DNA of 64,000 nucleotides, taken from Streptomyces sp. LaPpAH-108 (GTDB lineage: Bacteria > Actinomycetota > Actinomycetes > Streptomycetales > Streptomycetaceae). How positions within the stretch are numbered: position 1 is the first letter of the stretch; the number at the start of each line of letters is the position of its first letter. Positions 11,197 through 11,657 of the stretch are shown here, in pieces. Made by a program: the position numbers and the translations under genes. The stretch spans positions 248,001 to 312,000 of the forward strand of contig NZ_KB891987.1 in the NCBI RefSeq assembly GCF_000373625.1, read 5' to 3'. The notes below the pieces were generated by a model, which was given only the letters and a program-made list of their open reading frames with translations, did no database searches and was not told the origin of the DNA.

Positions 11197-11447
11197 GCGT
11201 CACCCTGATGTGGGAGGCGCGGGCCGCCGAGGGCCGGGGCGCCGACCTGCTCGCCTGGGCCCGCGCCCAGGAGCTGTCCGCCGCCCCGCTGCGCCGGGAG
11301 ACCTTCCGGGCACCGGGGGAGCGGGTGCTGGTCCTGACCTGGTGGGACGCGGCGTACGACGCGGACGTGCCGGAACTTCCCGATCCGGAGCCGGGGTTGG
11401 TGTCACGGCCGGTGCACCGGTGGCGGTTCGAGCCGGTGGAGAACTGA
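11193..11447 (+). CDS. Small hypothetical protein at the end of the tsaB-rimI-tsaD operon
   Basis: An 84-residue protein whose GTG overlaps the tsaD TGA (GTGA), so it is translationally coupled to tsaD. It contains [20 protein letters not shown] and [11 protein letters not shown], then an acidic Pro-rich stretch and [11 protein letters not shown]. The pattern resembles small ferredoxin-like or antibiotic-monooxygenase-like folds, but I cannot assign a family. Operon position hints at a role linked to tRNA or ribosome modification; this is inference. Confidence 0.8.
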
Positions 11448-11507
11448 TCTCGCCCGCTGTGCGATCAGGGCTGGCGCTTCGCGGCGATCTTTGGCTATGA
11501 TCATCAC

Positions 11508-11657
11508 AGAGCGAACGGGCCGGAACAACTCCGGTCAGAACGCCAGGCGTTGGTGGTCCAAGGAAAGACGCCCCGCTTCCTGCGGGGAAATGCAGGTGCA
11601 AGGCCTGCCCGGCGCTCAGATCAGAAGGCGCCCCGGTTTCGACCGGGGCGCCTTCGC
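11508..11657 (+). ncRNA. Candidate structured small RNA
   Basis: The 220 bp gap between convergent genes can fold into a closed, multi-branched structure. GAGCG (11509-11513) pairs with CGCTC (11613-11617) and CGG (11516-11518) with CCG (11609-11611). Inside lie four hairpins: CCGGA/TCCGG (11520-11534), AACGC/GCGTT (11539-11551), CCCCGC/GCGGGG (11571-11587) and GCAGG/CCTGC with a 7-nt TGCAAGG loop (11592-11608). A TATGAT -10 hexamer at 11496-11501 would start transcription near 11508, although no good -35 is visible. A 14-bp terminator follows. The last hairpin has the size of a tRNA T-arm, and GGTGCAAGGCC resembles a segment of cobalamin riboswitches, but no B12 box or downstream gene fits. 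Class unknown; it was not matched to any family. Confidence 0.55.
11624..11655. terminator. Bidirectional intrinsic terminator
   Basis: A perfect 14-bp stem: GAAGGCGCCCCGGT and ACCGGGGCGCCTTC around a TTCG loop. It ends 12 bp before the stop codon of the GH3 gene (minus strand) and directly follows the candidate RNA (plus strand), so it can serve both. No long T-run is present on either side. Confidence 0.85.

Follow-up and report, generated by a model that had tools for sequence, protein, structure and literature searches.

A dispersed family of noncanonical tRNA-Gly genes in Streptomyces with a possible role as glycyl donors outside the ribosome

Results and discussion

The RNA encoded between two convergent genes of Streptomyces sp. 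LaPpAH-108, within the window analysed here (the whole stretch of 64,000 nucleotides, on which positions are counted), belongs to a genuine family of tRNA-Gly-type genes in Streptomyces, supported by covariation. We propose, with about even confidence, that the gene specifies a free-standing noncanonical tRNA-Gly that acts as a dedicated, probably non-ribosomal glycyl donor. The support computed here consists of a covarying fold, glycine identity, a conserved gene layout, dispersed multi-copy spread and the presence of ordinary Gly tRNAs alongside. A preliminary description had assigned the RNA to no known class; ARAGORN, covariation and the identity bases instead reveal a tRNA cloverleaf with glycine identity. 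Passages of PMC8007984 and PMC4052509 describe staphylococcal tRNAs that are reserved for tasks outside the ribosome; the kind (non-ribosomal tRNA-Gly) is already known, and the dispersed Streptomyces family is probably a new variant of it. A search of the open-access PMC literature, with subscription papers outside its reach, found no prior description of this RNA.

Organisation of the locus and of the gene family

The gene lies on the plus strand between an 84-aa ORF of the same strand, which ends at 11447 downstream of tsaD, and a 979-aa ORF that runs from 11668 on the minus strand and looks by eye like a GH3 glycosidase. This convergent arrangement had been described beforehand, as had the TATGAT −10 hexamer and a 14-bp terminator, and all three were recovered: the hexamer at 11496-11501 (plus strand), supported by the sequence and by the consensus over 94 non-redundant copies, and the terminator as a GC-rich intrinsic hairpin at 11624-11655 (plus strand). 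With the start site placed from the −10 hexamer, the 5' leader would span 11508-11546 and is predicted to fold a hairpin (11519-11524 with 11530-11535). ARAGORN called 11547-11617 as tRNA-Gly with anticodon TCC, the sole tRNA called in the whole window, and the bounds of conservation and the covariation support the same tRNA-Gly(UCC)-like core on the plus strand. Within it, the 5' strand of the acceptor stem (GCGTTGG, 11547-11553) pairs with 11609-11615, and the 3' strand with discriminator U73 (11609-11616) is supported by covariation. The D arm (GTCC-AAGGAA-AGAC, 11556-11569) has three pairs plus C-A, and the anticodon arm (11571-11587) presents the loop CTTCCTG at 11576-11582 with anticodon TCC at 11578-11580, U37 and C32/G38. 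The T arm (GCAGG-TGCAAGG-CCTGC, 11592-11608) carries G55 and A51-U63, and corresponds to the last hairpin, for which T-arm dimensions had been noted. At the 3' end of the core U73 is 11616 and C74 is 11617, and CCA is absent from the gene.

An Rfam scan had been suggested as a check and gave no match anywhere in the window at gathering scores. Up to E 10 there were only 15 sub-threshold matches around the RNA, the best of them on the terminator hairpin, and these were deemed chance. The tRNA family RF00005 (cut-off 29) left the window copy unmatched and matched the copy on contig C10 of the same genome at 37.3 bits; the copy on C2 was not listed. The likeness to cobalamin riboswitches that had been pointed out reduces to a shared T-loop-type motif (GGUGnAAnnCC). 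Unlike that riboswitch, the RNA has a tRNA architecture and no regulated gene, and no riboswitch stands among its 15 Rfam matches up to E 10.

The 94 non-redundant copies lie at many unrelated intergenic sites and follow one order: promoter, leader hairpin, tRNA, terminator. Their promoter consensus reads TGnGnTATgaT, then gatct.gagc, from which the window copy differs in lacking the G of TG. The leader hairpin had a z below −1.5 in 75 of the 94 copies; 93 had a terminator stem of 9 or more base pairs, a median of 4 nt after the core, and 69 had at least four T within 12 nt at the end of that stem. The sequences of leader and terminator vary between copies. In 82 of 94 copies, GATC stood between the −10 hexamer and the core, often by eye as GATC(A/T)T (GATCAT at 11499-11504 in the window), a form given in part of PMC9239103 as the consensus to which the nucleoid protein Gbn binds.

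Of the neighbours within 1.5 kb, those upstream ran in the same direction in 54 of 72 cases and those downstream were convergent in 46 of 71. When the ORFs near 72 copies were clustered, the tsaD locus formed the largest shared set (11/72), with other families at no more than 4; Pfam, run on 96 of 101 distinct neighbours (five long ones omitted), found no family in more than two, and five annotated plasmid neighbourhoods showed no likeness by eye. One layout over 94 copies, together with the lack of a common neighbour gene, is the basis for regarding the RNA as free-standing.

Fold, covariation and precursor

The stretch had been described as structured, and its 162 nt (11496-11657) indeed fold 6.25 sd below dinucleotide shuffles, but the score of the whole stretch is strong largely because it includes the terminator: without it, z was −2.93 with 1 of 200 shuffles equally good, and for the core alone z was −2.08 with 7 of 200 equally good. 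Covariance analysis across species, also suggested in the preliminary description, strongly supported the cloverleaf. The alignment comprised 52 sequences, of which 31 rows (classes A-D) were distinct, and it is CM-fitted and therefore leans toward the model. In it, 99.5% of cells were paired in the cloverleaf tested (7-bp acceptor, D, 5-bp anticodon and 5-bp T stem), and 11 of its 20 pairs showed two-sided changes. None of 500 shuffles matched this pairing, and sliding the alignment cut it to 39-50%. As in the window copy, the D stem of most rows consists of three pairs plus C-A.

An outer helix joining 11509-11519 to 11609-11617 does appear in the predicted fold of the window precursor, though not as a feature of the family, and the fold has five hairpins where four had been drawn inside the helix. 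In the window precursor, the pairing of leader and core 3' end had a mean probability of 0.82 against 0.04 for the acceptor stem. Leader pairing of this kind passed 0.5 in 18 of the 94 precursors, including that of the window; the acceptor stem passed it in 61 of them and, when the cores were folded in isolation, in all 94. GAGC, the leader partner in this helix, is present in 49 of 94 copies, and covariation cannot support the helix because its core side is invariant. As predicted by folding, the outer helix is an alternative fold of the precursor. Pairing of the leader with the tRNA 3' end (precursor 11508-11617; 18/94 copies) would cost the acceptor stem, and this may constitute a processing switch.

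Glycine identity

G1-C72, C2-G71, G3-C70, U73, C35 and C36 were present in all 31 distinct rows of classes A-D. In the relevant passages of PMC9976931, bacterial glycine identity is given as G1-C72, C2-G71, U73, C35 and C36, to which Thermus adds C50-G64, G10 and U16. Among the 26 distinct core rows, C50 was found in 24 and G10 in 26, whereas the Thermus determinant U16 is not found in the cores, whose D loop AAGGAA contains no U. Judged from these bases, the cores carry the bacterial glycine identity set, Thermus U16 excepted. The tRNA architecture is likewise kept: U8, A14, A15-U48, U54-A58 and G53-C61 occurred in 26/26 core rows and the G19-C56 tertiary pair was retained (G19 in 25/26). G45 was kept in only 15/26.

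These invariant positions bear on the proposal, made in the preliminary description, of a trans-acting small RNA. What survives of that proposal is a structured RNA that stands free, has promoter-like and terminator elements of its own and presumably acts in trans; the class and the outer helix as a family structure do not survive. We consider it unlikely that the gene encodes a trans-acting regulatory RNA in a tRNA-like fold that donates no glycine and either uses its C-rich loop to pair with ribosome-binding sites rich in G or binds GlyRS or another tRNA-binding protein. The promoter-like and terminator elements and the dispersed copies would suit such an RNA, as would the CC in the loop of 31/31 distinct rows, C-rich loops being common in small RNAs. 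However, the invariant G1-C72, C2-G71, G3-C70 and U73 would be needless for loop pairing, AGCC and TGCC loops mismatch the Shine-Dalgarno complement, and conservation stops at the tRNA positions.

Decoding traits

Elongator tRNAs that decode normally have a 7-nt anticodon loop, U33, a purine at position 37 and U55 in the T loop, a set of features that the cores do not show in full. G55 was present in 26/26 cores (in staphylococci, GUGC replaces GTψC), and position 37 was a purine in 2/26 and a pyrimidine in 21/26. The anticodon loop had 7 nt in 21/26 cores, and in the remaining five it was shortened to 6 nt (4 if C32/G38 pair) with CC retained; U33 was found in 23/26.

The U33 and 7-nt loop of most cores would be compatible with an additional tRNA that reads GGA/GGG codons to the benefit of plasmid or arm genes. 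ARAGORN moreover assigns most main-type copies, and also the one in the window, to tRNA-Gly TCC, and four TCC genes are tabulated for S. ghanaensis in part of PMC4932002, candidate class members only. Even so, we hold a decoding role to be rather improbable: the source genome (G000) has ordinary tRNA-Gly genes with TCC, CCC and GCC, the pyrimidine at 37 prevails, and the five cores with shortened loops conserve the rest of the RNA. Canonical Streptomyces tRNA-Gly shares with the core its cloverleaf, G1-C72, C2-G71, U73 and NCC, but by eye it differs in T55, G51-C63, A37 and 7-nt loops, the canonical TCC gene having G49-U65 and G51-C63. Core and canonical genes are 50-54% identical.

Distribution in Streptomyces and beyond

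A covariance model built on the core (R1) and run on 121 genomes of the genus matched 63 of them, and 62 carry the core class. A model of all classes (R2) also matches class D, a related type described below, and was for this reason left out of core-copy counting. By manual count of 112 rows, the core class comprises 105 copies in 62/121 genomes, with 1-6 per genome, a core length of 71 nt and the same bounds across copies. A DNA search of the 121 genomes showed that conservation of many copies ends at the tRNA ends, where the flanks differ. Most main-type cores share 97-100% identity between species despite these different flanks. Decayed core copies, missed by ARAGORN, were seen at three loci (L163, L164 and L165).

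In a class sample of 296 genomes, strong R1 matches were confined to Streptomyces. Eight weak matches fell outside the genus; six of them, read by eye, were ordinary tRNAs, and the other two were uninspected. The order sample held no match in the core score range among 16 genomes of other genera. A 27-nt pattern scan of named genomes gave at least 120 stretches, and among the 80 matches listed 79 were from Streptomyces and one from Actinacidiphila. Plasmids contributed 70 records with the core (68 Streptomyces and 2 Streptantibioticus); the core was not found in phages by blastn or in viral contigs by exact pattern. Half of the 40 copies on 23 large contigs lay within the terminal 10% on one side or the other, a figure inflated by mirrored end copies, and carrier genomes were larger than those of non-carriers (9.13 Mb vs 7.96 Mb). 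In three genomes (G091, G068 and G064), seven core copies were located within 0.5% of the chromosome ends; six of these occupy mirrored positions and look like terminal-repeat duplicates.

Residence on plasmids, the outer-end positions and the larger carrier genomes would be in keeping with a tRNA that spreads on accessory DNA and acts as a decoy or spare where toxins, phages or defence systems attack tRNAs, and one plasmid copy adjoins DUF2397/2398/2399 and SbcC/MukB-like genes. We nevertheless give this idea the same small chance as a decoding role, since no defence or toxin neighbour recurs and since bait for an anticodon nuclease should keep its loop, whereas loop length and sequence vary. 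A decayed tRNA pseudogene or passive repeat is very improbable, for although a few decayed copies exist, main-type cores are mostly near-identical across species against different flanks, compensatory changes occur, and promoter and terminator are conserved.

Proposed function and comparison with staphylococci

The marks for glycine loading are kept and several marks for codon reading are missing, so the glycine is probably handed to a non-ribosomal user; likewise, both the anticodon loop and the T arm seem poorly suited to decoding and to tight EF-Tu binding, which argues for use of the Gly-tRNA outside the ribosome. As a free-standing noncanonical tRNA-Gly, the gene would be expressed as a transcript of ~150 nt comprising leader hairpin, tRNA and terminator, which would be trimmed to the cloverleaf and given its CCA. 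Glycyl-tRNA synthetase would then charge the tRNA with glycine, EF-Tu would bind it weakly, and the Gly-tRNA would serve outside the ribosome as the glycyl donor of a putative enzyme and acceptor.

A precedent is found in S. aureus, whose tRNA-Gly(UCC), according to passages of PMC8007984, has altered D and T loops, is charged by GlyRS, is poor for EF-Tu and feeds the pentaglycine bridges of the cell wall; in part of PMC4052509, A51-U63 and A49-U65 are named as weak EF-Tu pairs of the non-proteinogenic tRNA-Gly. As far as these passages go, the Streptomyces cores share with it the UCC anticodon, the altered T loop, glycine identity, the occurrence as extra copies beside ordinary Gly tRNAs, and A51-U63 (A51 in 26/26 and U63 in 25/26 cores). 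In contrast, A49-U65 of S. aureus is G49-C65 in the cores (G49 25/26, C65 26/26), and where the S. aureus D loop has UU or CU, the cores have GG18-19 (G18 26/26). The Streptomyces genes are also unlike those of S. aureus in being dispersed single genes with a leader hairpin and a terminator, in their patchy occurrence, in their presence on plasmids and in the shortened anticodon loops of some cores.

Candidate users of Gly-tRNA did not set carriers apart among the 121 genomes. FemAB (PF02388) was present in 121/121, with 3.90 pieces per genome in carriers vs 3.46 in non-carriers (p 0.27), and Lant_dehydr_N (PF04738, LanB-type), present in 88/121, was found in 43/62 carriers vs 45/59 non-carriers (p 0.42). 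The GNAT-phage-like domain (PF22559) occurred in 7/121 genomes and not in the source genome. Oddly, the patchy, plasmid and chromosome-end distribution ill fits a housekeeping role in the cell wall. If the proposed donor role is true, the family, together with the near-universal and phage types described below, would mean that private supplies of aminoacyl-tRNA are widespread among antibiotic producers and the phages that infect them, and would point to unrecognised glycyl-transfer chemistry. Such genes may be mistaken for ordinary tRNA-Gly(UCC) in annotation and in studies of codon usage.

Related tRNA-Gly genes of chromosomes and phages

Class D is a tRNA-Gly(UCC) with G55, a bulged T stem, no D-loop GG and the T loop TGCAATT or TGCGATT. 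In the order sample it matched 181/181 genomes of the genus and 186/197 overall, a handful of these matches being read as sequence and the weaker ones unlisted. Examples are L335 1501-1573 (G000:C8:58322-58394, plus strand) and L332 324-396. In each of the nine loci examined, a tRNA-Gly(GCC) gene lay just downstream of class D, which ARAGORN called in L159-L161 but not in these nine. We regard class D as a candidate cell-wall tRNA-Gly.

Classes B, C and E were found at four prophage-like Streptomyces loci, directly upstream of a gene with the GNAT-phage-like domain, which was fused to DAM-like-phage1 in both proteins scanned; ParB-like and terminase genes lay near the prophage-type loci (by resemblance in L330 and L158). 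In the Streptomyces prophage-like loci and in Mycobacterium and Gordonia phages, the tRNA-Gly(-like) sequence together with the DAM-like/GNAT-like gene spans L156 7057-8517, L330 5204-6765, L157 5427-7026 and L158 5443-7023, and likewise L345 2893-4335, L346 2823-4326 and L344 2821-4326. In phages the DAM-like/GNAT-like gene occurred in 13 records, three of them unopened duplicates: six of six Mycobacterium phages opened had an annotated tRNA-Gly at its start, and in four of four Gordonia phages opened a tRNA-Gly-like match that is not annotated lay just ahead of it. No such RNA lay near four other copies of the gene, which come from three Streptomyces genomes. The phage and prophage tRNA-Gly (L156, L330, L157, L158, Mycobacterium phage Jeon and Gordonia phage Clawz) share the glycine identity bases with the window type but differ from it in having a fixed gene partner and, in L330, L157 and L158, a TTC-type T loop. 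This coupling suggests, as a hypothesis drawn from gene order and domain content, that the GNAT-like domain may transfer glycyl groups to DNA.

The core is 72% identical to class B and 65% to class D, closer to both than to the canonical tRNA-Gly genes (50-54%), and of the relatives compared from outside the class, L156 (72% identity, T loop TGCAAG) is the nearest. On a broader view, which we think possible but doubtful, Streptomyces and some actinophages would keep private glycine tRNAs off translation that feed aminoacyl-tRNA-dependent transferases: a near-universal chromosomal type, a phage type with the DAM-like/GNAT-like fusion, for which a glycyl-type DNA base modification from Gly-tRNA is predicted, and the dispersed accessory type of the window, related to that of phages. 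Two apparently orthologous phage-type tRNA-Gly genes, L156 7057-7127 and L330 6694-6765, differ in their T loops, TGCAAGT vs TTCAAAT; with a compensated T-stem pair accompanying this difference, the G55 trait seems to switch.
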